Assembly: GCF_014639535.1 (NCBI RefSeq)
Contig: NZ_BMGA01000004.1
Location: 238,597-302,596, forward strand
Reading direction: 5' to 3'
Source: Flavobacterium palustre
Lineage (GTDB): Bacteria; Bacteroidota; Bacteroidia; Flavobacteriales; Flavobacteriaceae
DNA length: 64,000 nucleotides
Position numbers and translations under genes: made by a program. The first letter of the stretch is position 1. Each line of letters starts with the position of its first letter. Below the pieces are notes generated by a model, which saw nothing but the letters and a program-made list of their open reading frames with translations, was not told the origin of the DNA and ran no database searches. Below, piece by piece: positions 4,075-27,319 of this stretch.

Positions 4075-5400
4075 ATGAAAAAAACAATAATGGCAATTAG
4101 TACTGCTCTTTTACTTGGCGGTGTCGCCAGAGCCCAAAAAATAACTTTCGAAGAATACGATTTAGACAATGGAATGCACGTTATCCTGCATCAGGATAAT
4201 AGCGCTCCAGTTGTAATCACTTCTGTAATGTACCATGTAGGTTCCAAAGATGAAAATCCAAACAAAACAGGATTTGCTCATTTTTTCGAACATTTATTAT
4301 TTGAAGGAACAAAAAATATCAAAAGAGGCGAATGGTTCAATATTGTTACCGCTAATGGCGGAGTGAATAACGCCAACACTTCTGACGACCGAACCTATTA
4401 CTATGAAGTTTTTCCTTCCAACAATTTAGAATTGGCACTTTGGATGGAATCAGAAAGATTGATGCATCCGGTAATTAACCAAATTGGGGTTGACACTCAA
4501 AAAGGAGTAATTAAAGAAGAGAAAAATTCACGTTACGACAACCAGCCTTATGGAAAAATTATTGAAGCCGTTAAAAAGAACCTATTTACAAACCATCCTT
4601 ACCGCTGGACAACTATAGGCTCAACCGAACATTTGAATTCTGCGAAATTAGAAGATTTTAAAGCTTTTAATGAAAAATTCTATGTCCCTAATAATGCTGT
4701 TTTGGTTATAGCAGGCGACTTCGAACAAAAACAAGCCAAAGAATGGATTCAAAATTACTTTGGTTCAATTAAAAAAGGAGCTGCAATAAAAAGAGAAACA
4801 TTTGTTGAAAAACCAATCACCGAAACCATCAAAGCAACACACATCGACCCTAACATTCAAATCCCAATGTTGGTCGCGGCTTACCGAACTCCATCCATGA
4901 AAAGCAGGGATGCACGCGTGTTGGATTTTATTTCTTCCTATTTAAGCGATGGAAAAAGTTCGAAACTGTATAAAAAAATAGTGGACGACAAGAAAAAAGC
5001 TTTACAAATTGGCGCTGTAGGTTTTAATCAGGAAGATTATGGCATGTATATTTTATATGGTTTACCAATGACCAACTTCACCAACGAAGACTTGCTGAAA
5101 GAAATTGACGAAGAAATTGTAAAAATTCAAAACGAATTAATTTCTGAAAAAGACTACCAGAAACTATTGAATCAATTTGAAAACCAATACGTAAATCAGA
5201 ACTCAAACGTAGAAGGAATTGCTGAAAATTTAGCTAAATATTACCTGCTTTACGACGATGTAAACCTTATCAATACTGATATCGACATTTACCATTCTAT
5301 CACCAGAGAAGAAATTAGAGCTGTTGCCCAAAAATACCTGAATCCAAATCAGCGATTACTATTGGACTACATTCCCAGCCCTGAAAAAAACGAGAACTAA
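4075..5400 (+). CDS. M16-family zinc metallopeptidase, catalytic subunit
   Basis: A 441-residue protein with an N-terminal signal sequence (MKKTIMAISTALLLGGVARAQ). It carries the inverted zinc motif HxxEH (HFFEH, residues 69-73) and the downstream acidic segment (GVIKEEKNSRYDNQPYG) that supplies the third zinc ligand in M16 enzymes. N- and C-terminal M16 lobes are both present, as in the processing-peptidase beta/PqqL group. Predicted periplasmic or exported peptidase. The partner gene at 5415 starts 14 nt after its stop and lacks the zinc motif, so the two likely form an active/inactive heterodimer. Confidence 0.92.
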   Translation: MKKTIMAISTALLLGGVARAQKITFEEYDLDNGMHVILHQDNSAPVVITSVMYHVGSKDENPNKTGFAHFFEHLLFEGTKNIKRGEWFNIVTANGGVNNANTSDDRTYYYEVFPSNNLELALWMESERLMHPVINQIGVDTQKGVIKEEKNSRYDNQPYGKIIEAVKKNLFTNHPYRWTTIGSTEHLNSAKLEDFKAFNEKFYVPNNAVLVIAGDFEQKQAKEWIQNYFGSIKKGAAIKRETFVEKPITETIKATHIDPNIQIPMLVAAYRTPSMKSRDARVLDFISSYLSDGKSSKLYKKIVDDKKKALQIGAVGFNQEDYGMYILYGLPMTNFTNEDLLKEIDEEIVKIQNELISEKDYQKLLNQFENQYVNQNSNVEGIAENLAKYYLLYDDVNLINTDIDIYHSITREEIRAVAQKYLNPNQRLLLDYIPSPEKNEN

Positions 5401-22450: not shown

Positions 22451-24841
22451 TTACGCTCCACACATTTCGCAATCCTCAGGACCGCCTGCTTGGGCTTGTA
22501 AAATCATCTTTTTATAATCCTCAATATCAATCGCTTCTGTTTTAATTTCTTCAGCAACTGGCTGTTCTTTTTTATCGTTATTTAAAGTAAATTTAATTGC
22601 ATCCACAGCCGATTTAGTTCTTAAATAGTACATTCCTGTTTTCAATCCAGATTGCCAAGCATAAAAGTGCATTGATGTTAATTTAGCGTAATTAGCATCC
22701 TGCATAAACAAGTTCAATGATTGTGATTGATCAATAAAATACCCTCTTTGACGAGACATATCAATAATGTCTTTCATTGACATTTCCCAAACAGTTTTGT
22801 ACAACTCTTTCAAGTCTTGTGGAATCACATCAATATTTTGAACCGATCCGTTGTGACGCATGATTTCCTGTTTCAGGCTTTCGTTCCACAATCCGCGCTC
22901 TACTAAATCATGTAATAAATGTTTGTTTACCACAATAAATTCTCCTGATAATACACGACGGGTATAAATATTAGAAGTATATGGTTCGAAAGCTTCGTTA
23001 TTACCTAAAATTTGAGAAGTAGAAGCAGTAGGCATTGGAGCAACCAATAAAGAGTTACGCACACCGTGTTCCATCACTTCTTTTCTTAATGAAGCCCAGT
23101 CCCAACGACCTGATAAATCCTCATCTTTTAATCCCCACATATTGTGTTGGAATTCTCCTTTAGAAATTGGAGAGCCTTCATAAGTAGAATACGGTCCTTC
23201 TTCTTTAGCCATTTCCATAGAAGCGGTAACAGCTGCAAAGTATAAAGTTTCGAAAATTTCCTGATTCAGTTTTTTAGCAGCATCACTGGTAAACGGCATA
23301 CGCAACATAATGAAAGCATCAGCCAAACCTTGCACTCCTAAACCAACCGGTCTATGACGCATATTAGAATTTTCTGCTTCCGGAACCGGATAGTAGTTTC
23401 TATCAATAACCTTATTTAAGTTTCTGGTAACACGTTTTGTCACATTAAATAAAGCTTCATGGTTAAATTCACCGTTTTCAACAAACATTGGCAATGAAAG
23501 TGAAGCCAGGTTACAAACCGCAATTTCATCCTTAGAAGTGTACTCCATAATTTCAGTACACAAGTTAGAAGAACGAATAACTCCTAAATTCTTTTGGTTT
23601 GATTTACGGTTAACAGAATCTTTGTATAACATGTATGGCGTTCCTGTCTCGATTTGAGATTCCAGGATTTTCTCCCATAATTCACGTGCTCTGATAGTTT
23701 TTCTACCTTTTCCTTTGGCTTCATAATCGGTATATAAAGCTTCGAATTCGTCTCCATAAACATCATACAATCCAGGACATTCGTTAGGACACATTAAAGT
23801 CCAGGCTCCATCTTCCTGTACACGTTTCATGAACAAATCAGAAGTCCACATCGCGAAGAATAAATCTCTCGCTCGCATTTCTTCTTTTCCGGTGTTCTTT
23901 TTCAAATCTAAGAATTCGAAAATATCAGCATGCCAGGTTTCGATGTAAATCGCAAAACTACCTTTGCGTTTTCCTCCACCCTGATCTACATAACGAGCCG
24001 TATCATTAAAAACTCTCAACATCGGAACAATTCCGTTTGAAGTTCCGTTTGTTCCGCGAATGTAAGAACCTGTAGCACGAACATTATGAATAGAAAGTCC
24101 GATTCCTCCCGCTGATTGGGAAATTTTTGCTGTTTGTTTCAAAGTATCGTAAATTCCGTCGATACTGTCATCCTGCATTGCTAAAAGGAAGCAAGAAGAC
24201 ATTTGAGGTTTTGGTGTACCAGCGTTGAATAATGTTGGTGTTGCATGCGTAAAAAACTTTTTAGACATTAAGTCGTAAGTTTCTAAAACAGCCTGTAAGT
24301 CATCTAAGTGAATTCCAACAGCCACACGCATTAACATATGTTGTGGTCTTTCAACAATTTTCCCGTTTATTTTTAACAAATAAGAACGTTCCAATGTTTT
24401 GAAACCAAAATAATCATAATTAAAATCTCTTGTATAAATAATATGAGAATCTAAGAAAGCCGCATTTTCCTGAATTACTTTGAAAACTTCATCCGAAATT
24501 AACGGAGCATCCTGTCCATTTCTTGGATTCACATAATGATACATTTCGGTCATAGTTTCCGAAAATGATTTTTTTGTATTCGAATGCAAGTTTGAAATTG
24601 CAATTCTCGCTGCCAACTGAGCATAATCCGGATGCGCAATGGTCATCGAAGCTGCAGTCTCAGCCGCTAAATTATCTAACTCTGACGTAGAAACACCATC
24701 ATATAATCCTTCAATCACGCGCATTGCCACTTTTACGGCATCCACTAAATCATTTAAACCATAGCAAAGTTTTTTAATTCTTTCTGTGATTTTGTCGAAC
24801 ATTACTGGCTCTTTGTGGCCGTCTCTTTTTACTACGTACAT
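22451..24841 (-). CDS. nrdA: Ribonucleoside-diphosphate reductase, alpha subunit (class I)
   Basis: A 796-residue class I catalytic subunit reducing ribonucleotides to deoxyribonucleotides. An ATP-cone ([22 protein letters not shown]) spans ~1-90. Active-site residues are visible in [21 protein letters not shown] and CNLASLSLP, and in the tyrosine pair of [19 protein letters not shown]-terminal C-x2-C tail (CEMCGA) is the redox arm. It is 151 nt downstream of nrdB, an order (B then A) common in Bacteroidota. Confidence 0.97.
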
Positions 24842-24992: not shown

Positions 24993-25982
24993 TTAAAAAT
25001 CAGCGTCGAATGAAATTTCCTGAGCATCAGAATCATTAGCCTTTCCACTGTTTAAAACTCCTGCTTTTTGATATTCGGATACTTTTTTCTCAAAGAAATT
25101 TGTTTTTCCCTGAAGCGAAATCATATCCATAAAATCGAATGGATTGGCTGTATTGTACACTCTTTCACAACCTAATTCTACTAACAATCTATCAGTAACA
25201 AACTCTAAATATTGCGTCATTAAACCAGCGTTCATTCCAATCAAACTCACCGGAAGTGATTCGGTGATAAATTCTCTTTCGATATCCAAAGCGTTTACGA
25301 TAATTTCTTTGATTCTTTCTTTTGGTACTTTATTCACCAAGTGGTGGTTGTGTAAATGCACCGCAAAATCACAGTGAACACCTTCATCGCGGGAAATCAA
25401 TTCGTTAGAAAACGTTAATCCCGGCATTAAACCACGTTTTTTCAACCAATAAATAGAACAGAAAGCACCTGAGAAAAAGATTCCTTCTACAGCTGCAAAA
25501 GCAATCAGTCTTTCAGCAAAAGAATCAGATTCAATCCATTTCAAAGCCCAATCCGCTTTTTTTCTAATTGCAGGAAAAACATCTAAAGCATTAAACAATT
25601 CATCTTTTTCTTTTTCGTCTTTTACATACGTATCAATCAAAAGCGAATACGTTTCACTATGAATGTTTTCCATCATAATTTGGAAACCATAGAAAAATTT
25701 AGCTTCAGCATATTGTACCTCATTTACAAAATTCTCAGCTAAGTTTTCGTTTACAATTCCGTCAGAAGCAGCGAAGAAAGCTAAAATATGTTTGATAAAA
25801 TATTTCTCATCCGAATTCAACTTGTTGTTCCAATCATGTAAGTCCTGAGATAAATCGATTTCTTCAGCGGTCCAAAAACTAGCCTCCATCTTTTTATACC
25901 ATTCCCAAATATCATGGTGTTTAATAGGAAATATTACGAAACGATTTTTATTTTCTTGTAAAATGGGTTCTACTTGCGACAT
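24993..25982 (-). CDS. nrdB: Ribonucleoside-diphosphate reductase, beta subunit (class I)
   Basis: A 329-residue ferritin-like radical subunit. Metal-ligand motifs are visible: an Asp/Glu in [17 protein letters not shown], Glu-x2-His in [14 protein letters not shown], which also holds the radical Tyr, Glu in [12 protein letters not shown], and Glu-x2-His in [12 protein letters not shown]. The presence of the Tyr fits a class Ia/b-type radical enzyme. The promoter region (26033-26245) is duplicated 507 bp upstream. Confidence 0.97.
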
Positions 25983-26032: not shown

Positions 26033-26245
26033 TTACAAAGATTATGAAATATTGCGGTAATTAAAAGTCAAACTTATTCACAATAACCCCTAGTTTTTAA
26101 CAAAAATACAAAATTAAAGATTTTTCAACAAAAAAAGCAATCATTTCACAATCAAATACTTATAATCCAATAAAAATTATAAAGCACGGTAAAATATAGT
26201 ATTTAAACAATACAAAACAAGAAAACAAAACACTTTATTTTCACT
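26033..26245 (-). repeat. nrdB upstream region, copy 1 of a ~213-bp direct duplication
   Basis: This segment aligns with 26540-26752 at a constant offset of 507 bp. The proximal block 26033-26113 is nearly identical (about 6 differences in 80), the middle 70 bp are diverged, and the distal block 26185-26245 is highly similar again. Two conserved blocks around a diverged middle suggest the blocks carry the function. It includes the nrdB -7 box. Confidence 0.8.
26069..26076 (-). promoter_or_regulatory. -7 box of nrdB
   Basis: On the minus strand TAAGTTTG fits TAnnTTTG, with TTG about 24 nt upstream. The sequence TAGGGGTTATTGTGAA just upstream is conserved in the second copy and is a candidate regulator site. 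The leader to nrdB is about 85 nt. Confidence 0.55.
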
Positions 26246-26365
26246 TATTTATTTCAATAAAAAAGGATAAAAAAAGTTGTCAACACAAAATATTGAATCG
26301 TTAATAATTTTAAACAGTCATTAACACAATTATATGTAGATATGTACTATTTTTGAAAAACGAAA

Positions 26366-26396
26366 AACCGACATATGTTTTTTACGCATATATCGG
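26366..26396 (-). terminator. Terminator of the 42-residue ORF
   Basis: On the minus strand ACCGATATATG…CATATGTCGGT forms an 11-bp stem with one G-T pair, followed by TTTTTCGTTTTT. It starts 14 nt past the small ORF's stop, which supports that ORF being an expressed unit. Confidence 0.7.
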
Positions 26397-26409
26397 TCTT
26401 TCAATTATT

Positions 26410-26538
26410 CTATCTTTCGATAAATAATTTCACCACATCAACAACTAGGTGTCCTAAACCAACAATTGATGGAGTGACTTTCCAAAATTTGAGCCAAAGA
26501 CTTTCGGGGTCCGTAGGCTCTTTTTTATTTAATATCAT
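26410..26538 (-). CDS. 42-residue protein of unknown function behind a duplicated nrdB promoter
   Basis: ATG at 26536-26538, stop at 26410-26412. The product begins MILNKKEPTDPESLWLKFWK and continues with a mildly hydrophobic segment (VTPSIVGLGHLVVDVVKLFI). It has its own terminator 14 nt downstream. Its promoter is a near copy of the nrdB promoter, with the -7 box about 38 nt from the ATG. It shows no resemblance to the NrdB N-terminus. The hydrophobic C-terminal half could bind a membrane or a partner helix. I do not recognise a family. Confidence 0.6.
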   Translation of the reverse strand: MILNKKEPTDPESLWLKFWKVTPSIVGLGHLVVDVVKLFIER

Positions 26539-26539
26539 A

Positions 26540-26752
26540 TTACAAAGATTGCGAAATGTTGCGGTAATTAAAAGTCAAACTTATTCACAATACACCCTAG
26601 TTTTTAACAAAAAACAAAAAACTAGTCTTCTTTTCAAAAACACAACAACTAACTAAATATCAACAGATTAAAAATCTGAGTTTTAACTGAATCACCGTAA
26701 AATATAGGATTTAAACAACACAAAACAAGAAAAAAACAGTTTATTTTGACTT
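26540..26752 (-). repeat. Copy 2 of the nrdB upstream region, driving the 42-residue ORF
   Basis: Direct duplicate of 26033-26245. The right end runs into the last codons of the DUF3109 gene (TTTATTTTGACTT, compare TTTATTTTCACTT in copy 1). This suggests copy 2 is the original junction and copy 1 a duplicate, or that the small ORF was inserted with a repeated flank. Confidence 0.75.
26576..26583 (-). promoter_or_regulatory. -7 box of the 42-residue ORF
   Basis: TAAGTTTG on the minus strand, identical to the nrdB -7 box and in the same conserved context. The predicted leader is about 30 nt. Confidence 0.55.
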
Positions 26753-27319
26753 GACTTTTGCCCATTCACGAGCTACTAATTCAAGCTCTAAATACCAGTC
26801 TTCACCAAACCTTCTAATCAAAGCCTCTTTGACAAATTTATACACCGGAACTTCCAATTCTTTACCCAAAGAACAGGCATCATCACAGATATCCCATTTA
26901 TCATAATTAACCGCCGCAAACTCGGTAAAATCTTTTACTCTAATTGGATACAAATGACAGGAAACCGGTTTTTTCCAATCAACAATCCCCTGATTATAGG
27001 CTTGTTCAATACCGCAAAGTGCGGTTTTACCATCAAAAATCACATAAGCACAATCCTTATTGTCGATTAATGGTGTTTCCATATCTCCGTCAGTTCCTTT
27101 TACCCAGGTACCCTGAGCTTCAATAGCCTCTATTCCTTCTTTGCGTAAAAAAGGCTTTACTTTAGGAAATATTTCCTCCAAAATTTTAGCTTCCTCTTCA
27201 TTTAAAGGCGCACCTGCATCACCATCAACACAGCAGGCTCCGTGACAGGCTGAAAGATTACAAACAAATTCTTTTTCTAAAATATCTTCCGAAACTATGG
27301 TTTTTCCTAATTGAAACAT
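26741..27319 (-). CDS. DUF3109 family cysteine-rich protein
   Basis: A 192-residue cytoplasmic-type protein with cysteines in clusters: CNLSACHGACCVDGDAG near the start, then single Cys in KDCAYV, ALCGIEQ, VSCHLYPIR and ICDDAC. The pattern is that of DUF3109, related to the YkgJ-type zinc/iron-chelating family. It probably binds a metal or Fe-S cluster; the reaction is unknown. A -7 box (27348-27355) lies about 30 nt upstream. Confidence 0.85.
   Translation of the reverse strand: MFQLGKTIVSEDILEKEFVCNLSACHGACCVDGDAGAPLNEEEAKILEEIFPKVKPFLRKEGIEAIEAQGTWVKGTDGDMETPLIDNKDCAYVIFDGKTALCGIEQAYNQGIVDWKKPVSCHLYPIRVKDFTEFAAVNYDKWDICDDACSLGKELEVPVYKFVKEALIRRFGEDWYLELELVAREWAKVKSK

Follow-up and report, generated by a model that had tools for sequence, protein, structure and literature searches.

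Next to nrdB, the small-subunit gene of ribonucleotide reductase (RNR), the Flavobacterium palustre genome carries a 42-codon peptide gene, ORF42 (MILNKKEPTDPESLWLKFWKVTPSIVGLGHLVVDVVKLFIER), under a second copy of the nrdB promoter and facing a set of transcription signals on the opposite strand. From comparison of these sequences with their relatives in genomes, plasmids and viral contigs, we think it rather likely that the peptide gene, its promoter and its antisense strand form a mobile module working like a type I toxin-antitoxin pair.

Results

The nrdB promoter is duplicated

On the minus strand of the window (the whole stretch of 64,000 nucleotides that was analysed), the order is DUF3109 gene, promoter copy 2, ORF42, terminator, promoter copy 1, nrdB and nrdA (Table 1). 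The original prediction had described a duplicated nrdB promoter, and the two copies are real, with a diverged sequence between two conserved blocks. The constant spacing of 507 nt that it gave applies to the first block (81 nt, 90% identity) and fails for the second (47 nt, 89% identity), where the spacing is 508. No other repeat family of the region is as long as these two blocks; the rest measure 12–14 nt. A 42-codon frame ending before a terminator had also been predicted, and both were found. In copy 2, homology to the nrdB upstream region of relatives stops at CTTTGTA. All four of the close relatives G051, G005, G031 and UBA6721 have the DUF3109 gene, a single promoter copy and nrdB, and no ORF42, which amounts to an empty site. 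About 150 nt separate the CTATATTTTACGG block from the -7 box downstream of it, and no known regulator site was recognised in the block; a block resembling 26690–26736 is present in the phage units L158, L160, L182 and L249.

Table 1. Features of the nrdB–ORF42 region, in window coordinates.
Feature	Position	Strand	Basis
nrdA, RNR large subunit with ATP-cone	22451..24841	-	PF02867, PF03477
nrdB, class I RNR small subunit	24993..25982	-	PF00268
Promoter core copy 1, before nrdB	26033..26113	-	direct-repeat match
Upstream conserved block copy 1	26182..26228	-	direct-repeat match
Antisense -7 box TATTTTTG, 6 nt past the sense terminator stem	26348..26355	+	
Predicted convergent antisense RNA, about 167 nt, putative antitoxin	26360..26526	+	promoter and terminator positions
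Intrinsic terminator of ORF42 mRNA, -19.1 kcal/mol plus T tail	26362..26402	-	
ORF42, 42-codon peptide gene, putative small toxin	26410..26538	-	homologues, pN/pS
Hairpin 2 (UAUC GAAA GAUA), ORF42 end; two-sided changes in L156, L157	26411..26422	-	
Hairpin 1, near ORF42 5' end; with T tract 26521–26526 intrinsic-terminator-like on + strand	26491..26520	.	
nrdB promoter core copy 2, before ORF42	26540..26620	-	direct-repeat match
Probable -7 element AATCTTTG of ORF42 promoter, 4 nt from start codon	26543..26550	-	position and promoter comparison
DnaA-box-like TTATTCACA in copy 2 (= TTATNCACA, N variable among relatives)	26581..26589	+	comparison of loci
Upstream conserved block copy 2, contains CTATATTTTACGG	26690..26736	-	direct-repeat match
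DUF3109 gene, upstream neighbour of nrdB	26741..27319	-	PF11307

Promoter element and candidate regulator

The -7 box had originally been placed at TAAGTTTG. This sequence is present in both copies, but it is probably not the -7 box, because it carries a G at -9, which is virtually absent from the -7 elements of F. johnsoniae (PMC6847099). We prefer AATCTTTG. TGTGNATAA lies within 200 nt upstream of nrdB in 83 of 109 nrdB loci, and in 77 of these 83 CTTTGTA starts exactly 42 nt after it (another spacing in two, no CTTTGTA in four); 25 loci are without TGTGNATAA within 450 nt, two of them labelled Flavobacterium. The full TANNTTTG occupies the CTTTG position in four non-nrdB genes with the same promoter, as the variants TATGTTTG in L216 (again with a G at -9), TATATTTG in L235, and TATCTTTG in L219 and L244. 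A point against this choice is that the box begins with A in the nrdB loci, where the consensus has T. The -7 element of the ORF42 promoter is thus probably that listed in Table 1, and ORF42 mRNA is therefore probably leaderless or nearly so, a class that makes up 5.5% of mRNAs in the F. psychrophilum data as given in PMC9723704.

TAAGTTTG overlaps a DnaA-box-like site, which reads TTATNCACA on the opposite strand and is conserved; on the nrdB strand N is A in 67, G in 20, T in 10 and C in 2% of 88 nrdB loci, which were anchored on CTTTGT, so that this box is invariant there by construction. A check for NrdR binding to the conserved blocks had been suggested. No match to NrdR (TIGR00244) was obtained in the host genome, which is 99.99% complete, while 9 of 14 control genomes matched; NrdR control of the promoter was accordingly ruled out. 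Since NrdR is missing and DnaA controls nrdAB in E. coli, with DnaA boxes in the RNR promoter (PMC8203912), DnaA is, by analogy, a candidate regulator of the nrdB-type promoter. The present case differs from E. coli nrdAB in offering only a conserved box-like, putative site, and in having a Bacteroidota type of promoter. The assignment is tentative, as the host genome has no pair of TTATNCACA within 30 nt.

ORF42 is a conserved small gene

Lack of conservation of the ORF was named in the original prediction as a result that would speak against it. A search at E <= 1e-4 instead turned up homologues in four of the 398 other Flavobacterium genomes (G384, G405, G248 and G196, the last matching over residues 4–24 only), and homologues are also present on the plasmid pA5BP1 (79% identity, with DNA homology covering window 26331–26610) and on three viral contigs, the same three being recovered with two DNA patterns. 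Five of the proteins align without gaps over 42 residues, and the ends of ORF42 are identical in four other contexts at 45–79% protein identity. A comparison of six ORFs gave a pN/pS of 0.52 for the coding frame; the two other sense frames had 1.01 and 1.19, and the antisense frames 0.57, 0.86 and 0.98. We regard ORF42 as almost certainly a conserved protein-coding gene. The antisense frame with the value of 0.57 was considered as a gene and rejected: it is open in the window, L153 and L154, has one stop in each of L155, L156 and L160, and is read as a shadow of the sense frame. A pure non-coding RNA is likewise disfavoured by the frame-specific pN/pS, though the hairpins described below are constrained too.

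Because ORF42 has no match in Pfam, NCBIfam, PHROGs or PADLOC, it can be assigned to no known family. Among 395 class-level genomes, none but its own gave a match below E 0.01; the phage collection returned three matches, at E 4–9 only, and Rfam five in the region, all below gathering scores. Genes of this kind are easily missed by annotation: for pA5BP1 no gene is listed under ORF42 in the PLSDB table, which is incomplete, and the original record may differ.

The C-terminal segment of the peptide has a Kyte-Doolittle value of 1.45–1.74 in intact homologues (0.82 in L157) and a helical moment of 0.33–0.46. Within this hydrophobic helix, Asp34 (D34) is kept in all five aligned proteins and Lys37 (K37) in four. 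As the hydropathy is about or under the usual cut-off for a membrane span, we read the helix as probably surface-active more than clearly transmembrane. In L157 (G196 prophage, 5038–5172) the first half of ORF42 is in another frame; hairpin 1 is preserved at the nucleotide level, and so is the C-terminal helix, which might point to a role of the RNA itself in this copy.

Conserved hairpins and antisense signals

Two hairpins lie within ORF42 (Table 1). Across eight sequences 96.3% of the hairpin cells are paired and five cells show two-sided changes, a result obtained in 0 of 500 shuffles, and slid controls are 22–40% paired; in this alignment L154 and L158 are nearly alike and the two-sided changes come from L156 and L157 only. 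Of the 17 small-ORF units, 13 have a 5' hairpin with a z-score below -2; among the 83 nrdB leaders, four do. In the window it folds at -11.4 kcal/mol, but with a z of -1.47 only.

Hairpin 1 is terminator-like on the other strand because it comes after an A tract in ORF42. A simple terminator scan of the window gave a sole site, on the plus strand at 26506–26521, with 0.2 in shuffles; the sense terminator comes from a later scan. Just past that sense terminator stands a -7 box in the antisense direction. In 11 of the 12 units with ORF42 or TM peptides, L155 included, an antisense TAHHTTTG box occurs 6–11 nt past the sense terminator stem; in L156 the distance is 58 nt. By comparison, of the 27 genes of the window that have a terminator at their end, only one shows such a box within 45 nt.

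When the box was sought at +175..+235, a range chosen after a first look at the data, it was found together with an antisense terminator in 11/11 ORF42 and TM units, L154 and L158 being close relatives within these counts and L159, a near copy of L154, being left out here and counted in the z-score test. The ORF42 units with an nrdB promoter show both signals in 7/7 cases, and L155 has the box as well. Shuffled sequences contain the box in 2–8% and the terminator in 0–7% of cases, and nrdB control loci (excluding L001 and L111 of the host genome) in 0/83 and 5/83. The AbiD and HU-HIG units have no antisense box in this range (0/8); both DUF2188 units have one (2/2), and neither has the antisense terminator. 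Among five further small-ORF units, four are without the box in the fixed range and three of the five have an antisense terminator, two being without; measured past the stem, the box is at 15–23 nt in L184, L248 and L219, at 49 nt in L183 and nowhere in L220. We judge a convergent antisense RNA to be likely from this arrangement.

Probable recurrent capture of the nrdB promoter

The promoter core is present in 216 of 249 Flavobacterium genomes, and the same pattern read backwards is found in none of the genomes listed. More than one copy occurs in 26 genomes, of which 18 were inspected (the places of the remaining eight were not listed); each of the 18 has a copy at nrdB and an extra one ahead of a different gene. 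This gene is ORF42 in three genomes, a short TM-like peptide in three, a cysteine/lysine-rich 42-residue peptide in one, an Abi_2/AbiD gene in three, HU-HIG in five and unassigned in one, with DUF2188 further downstream in two; 2 of the 5 HU-HIG genes (L216, L237) and 1 of the 2 DUF2188 genes (L229) were assigned by Pfam scan and the others by eye. The AbiD-type genes (L227:1633-2511, L230:1576-2445 and L239:1591-2460) have their ATG less than 20 nt from the predicted transcription start and match PADLOC at E 4e-44 to 3e-49. The HU-HIG DNA-binding protein of 127 residues (L216, L235, L237, L241, L244) is the commonest second gene (5/18 genomes), and DUF2188-type proteins lie downstream of the nrdB-type promoter in L229 and L233. 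A related promoter core was found on nine viral contigs, in front of a small-ORF unit on eight and of nrdB on the ninth.

In 19 of the 27 units the homology to nrdB upstream regions runs 4–16 nt, mostly 6–9 nt, past the C of CTTTGTA; in the remaining eight it stops short of the -7 box. Its 5' end varies from -62 to beyond -1100. In the promoter tree, the G248 pair are sisters (96.8% identical), the G008 unit clusters with the nrdB promoter of its own genome (support 0.995), and the G196 and plasmid units group with the G196 nrdB promoter (0.964). The G091 unit promoter stands apart from that of G091 nrdB, and the two copies of the window are placed with relatives of the host, at weak support (0.70, 0.75). 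Each window copy resembles the nrdB promoter of a relative (77.3 and 78.3%) more than it resembles the other copy (73.6% over about 220 nt), so that a recent local duplication is not suggested. We conclude that capture of promoters from local nrdB loci, or exchange with them, took place on several occasions, though this is not demonstrable for each unit.

In plasmid and phage collections, the 81-nt core has only short partial matches outside Bacteroidota, and with up to 3 mismatches the motif was matched in 9 of 149 family-level genomes, two of them Flavobacterium. The locus L061, labelled as a Bdellovibrio sp. ZAP7 MAG, has a Flavobacterium-like nrdB (90%) and the promoter box, and is probably mis-binned. 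The TM-peptide profile, searched against 150 Flavobacterium genomes, found the two known carriers only, the host genome being without a match. No homology was detected between ORF42 and the TM peptides; the layout of the module thus recurs around different peptides.

Mobile contexts of ORF42

An nrdB-type promoter precedes ORF42 in seven of its eight distinct contexts, the exception being L155, and ORF42 adjoins nrdB in only two of the eight (the window and G248); the flanks examined in the other six contain no nrdB. In L157 (G196), ORF42 lies between terminase and portal genes; on the viral contigs L158 and L160 it is near terminase genes, and in the L154/G384 locus near a similar terminase gene, by inspection. 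A phage moron is an autonomous gene with its own promoter and terminator between phage genes, and the ORF42 unit, with promoter and terminator recognised by sequence, is such an autonomous transcription unit. The plasmid pA5BP1 carries an integrase of the tyrosine recombinase family. In this protein (L153:3464-5038) the tyrosine recombinase domain is followed by a weak AAA/NB-ARC-like part below Pfam cut-offs.

A decayed DUF3109 copy precedes the ORF42 unit in L154, L158, L159 and L160, and a short remnant does so in L157. G248 repeats the window arrangement at nrdB, in the order intact DUF3109, promoter, ORF42, the last 36 DUF3109 codons again, promoter and nrdB. By eye, TTATCAACA was noticed a little past the sense terminator in phages and the plasmid (L158, L160, L153, L222, L242), with a window counterpart GTTGACAAC (minus strand) near 26280. 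Taking promoters and contexts together, we hold promoter capture and mobility to be very probable.

Discussion

The module could work as follows. Its sense strand would give an mRNA that is leaderless or nearly so. The small peptide encoded by it combines a charged N-terminal part with a helix that is hydrophobic and amphipathic and keeps Asp34. A convergent promoter just past the sense terminator would produce an antisense RNA of about 167 nt that silences ORF42; running from about 26360 to 26526, it would overlap all of ORF42 apart from the first four codons and stop at a terminator made of the 5' hairpin of the mRNA and the A run of codons 5–6. It is the convergent antisense signals, together with the peptide helix that keeps Asp34 and Lys37, that suggest a cis-antisense type I layout. 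With the mRNA driven by the captured nrdB promoter, synthesis of the peptide would go along with increased ribonucleotide reductase, e.g. under replication or infection stress, and on such induction the ORF42 mRNA would outrun the antisense RNA. The sequences themselves show the conservation, the contexts, the homology of the promoters, the hairpins and the antisense signals, and from these we infer both RNAs, the toxicity, the membrane action, the induction and the order of events. That the peptide is a toxin seems to us about evenly poised, and much the same balance applies to stress induction of the unit. The AbiD genes share the nrdB-type promoter, which is why infection or replication stress may be the common signal.

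The module very probably moves on phages and plasmids. It may have reached nrdB when a circular element carrying a DUF3109 end, promoter and ORF42 recombined through the shared promoter segment and then lost its body, and the promoter copies that flank ORF42 in the window and in G248 would fit such recombination. A local duplication with insertion of ORF42 is a possible route as well. A plain tandem duplication of the promoter followed by the chance opening of a 42-codon frame would also leave repeats on either side of ORF42, but we give it practically no weight: the gene keeps identical ends in divergent homologues and an in-frame pN/pS of 0.52, its unit is also found on a plasmid and on phages, and the window copies resemble the promoters of relatives more than each other.

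The proposal in the original prediction that ORF42 encodes a small protein which is co-expressed with nrdB and tunes RNR or the dNTP supply has in its favour that the two genes use the same promoter and are neighbours in the window and in G248. What stands of it is the control region common to nrdB, which recurs in phages, the plasmid and other genomes. A stable partner of RNR is not what the remaining contexts show, since six of the eight are away from nrdB in the flanks examined, 394 of the 398 other Flavobacterium genomes have no ORF42 match at E 1e-4, and TM peptides without homology to it are found behind the same promoter; we consider this function very improbable. Even less probable, in our view, is that the promoter copy is a decoy titrating a regulator such as DnaA, with ORF42 incidental. 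Phage copies do retain the DnaA-box-like TTATNCACA and the upstream block; however, ORF42 is under purifying selection, a single copy per element would be a weak titrator, and no TTATNCACA pair lies within 30 nt in the host genome. More serious, although still unlikely, is the reading of ORF42 as an accessory gene of phages (moron) that serves to exclude superinfecting phage or to take over the host, whose peptide acts on incoming phage or on the host and whose antisense signals only insulate it from neighbouring transcription. The prophage and plasmid contexts beside terminase and portal genes, the unit's own promoter and terminator, and the presence of AbiD among the genes behind the same promoter all agree with it. 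It leaves unexplained the near-fixed -7 box past the terminator plus the terminator within the 5' end of ORF42, and the gene matches no PHROG family. The unit shares the autonomy of phage morons and differs from them in that its promoter comes from a core gene of the host, its peptides are exchangeable and it has a putative antisense partner.

For the type I reading, the nearest functional parallel, by analogy, would be TisB. A charged strip in the helix, an inhibitory structure at the mRNA 5' end and a DNA-stress promoter are described for this toxin in PMC8309996. The SOS-controlled tisB/istR-1 pair of E. coli would thus share with the ORF42 module a very small hydrophobic or amphipathic peptide with charged helix residues, an RNA antitoxin and DNA-stress control, and the mRNA is structured at the 5' end in both. 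The antitoxins of tisB/istR-1 and dinQ/agrB act in trans, whereas the ORF42 antisense signals are in cis and convergent; tisB and dinQ have a LexA promoter, in contrast to the captured nrdB promoter here, and ORF42 encodes a putative toxin. The dinQ/agrB pair of E. coli is reportedly an SOS-controlled type I toxin-antitoxin system and can be likened to the ORF42 module in the same way as tisB/istR-1. Cis-acting type I pairs named in the same source (PMC8309996) are bsrG/SR4 and hok/Sok. Like these, the ORF42 module would have an overlapping antisense RNA (predicted here) and a small membrane-active peptide. Unlike them, it belongs to another host phylum, its RNAs are predicted, it uses an nrdB promoter, and its antisense terminator would double as the 5' hairpin of the toxin mRNA.

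Our literature searches listed no description of this promoter, of ORF42 or of the module. Until a cyanobacterial case was added in 2025, type I systems had reportedly been found only in Proteobacteria, Firmicutes and Tenericutes (abstract of PMC12390103). If our reading is true, type I toxin-antitoxin logic extends to Bacteroidota, and mobile elements tap the RNR promoter as a sensor. In its widest form, which we put forward tentatively and hold to be somewhat less than an even prospect, Flavobacterium phages, plasmids and genomic islands would share a modular 'plug', in which the nrdB promoter of the host, captured repeatedly, is joined at its transcription start with exchangeable toxin/antisense pairs or with Abi genes; the promoter would serve both as a sensor of infection or replication stress and as homology for movement between element and nrdB locus, and this would be the first regulon of its kind, while Bacteroidota would gain their first type I-like modules. 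With one promoter serving several different peptides as well as AbiD genes, the system is readily testable.
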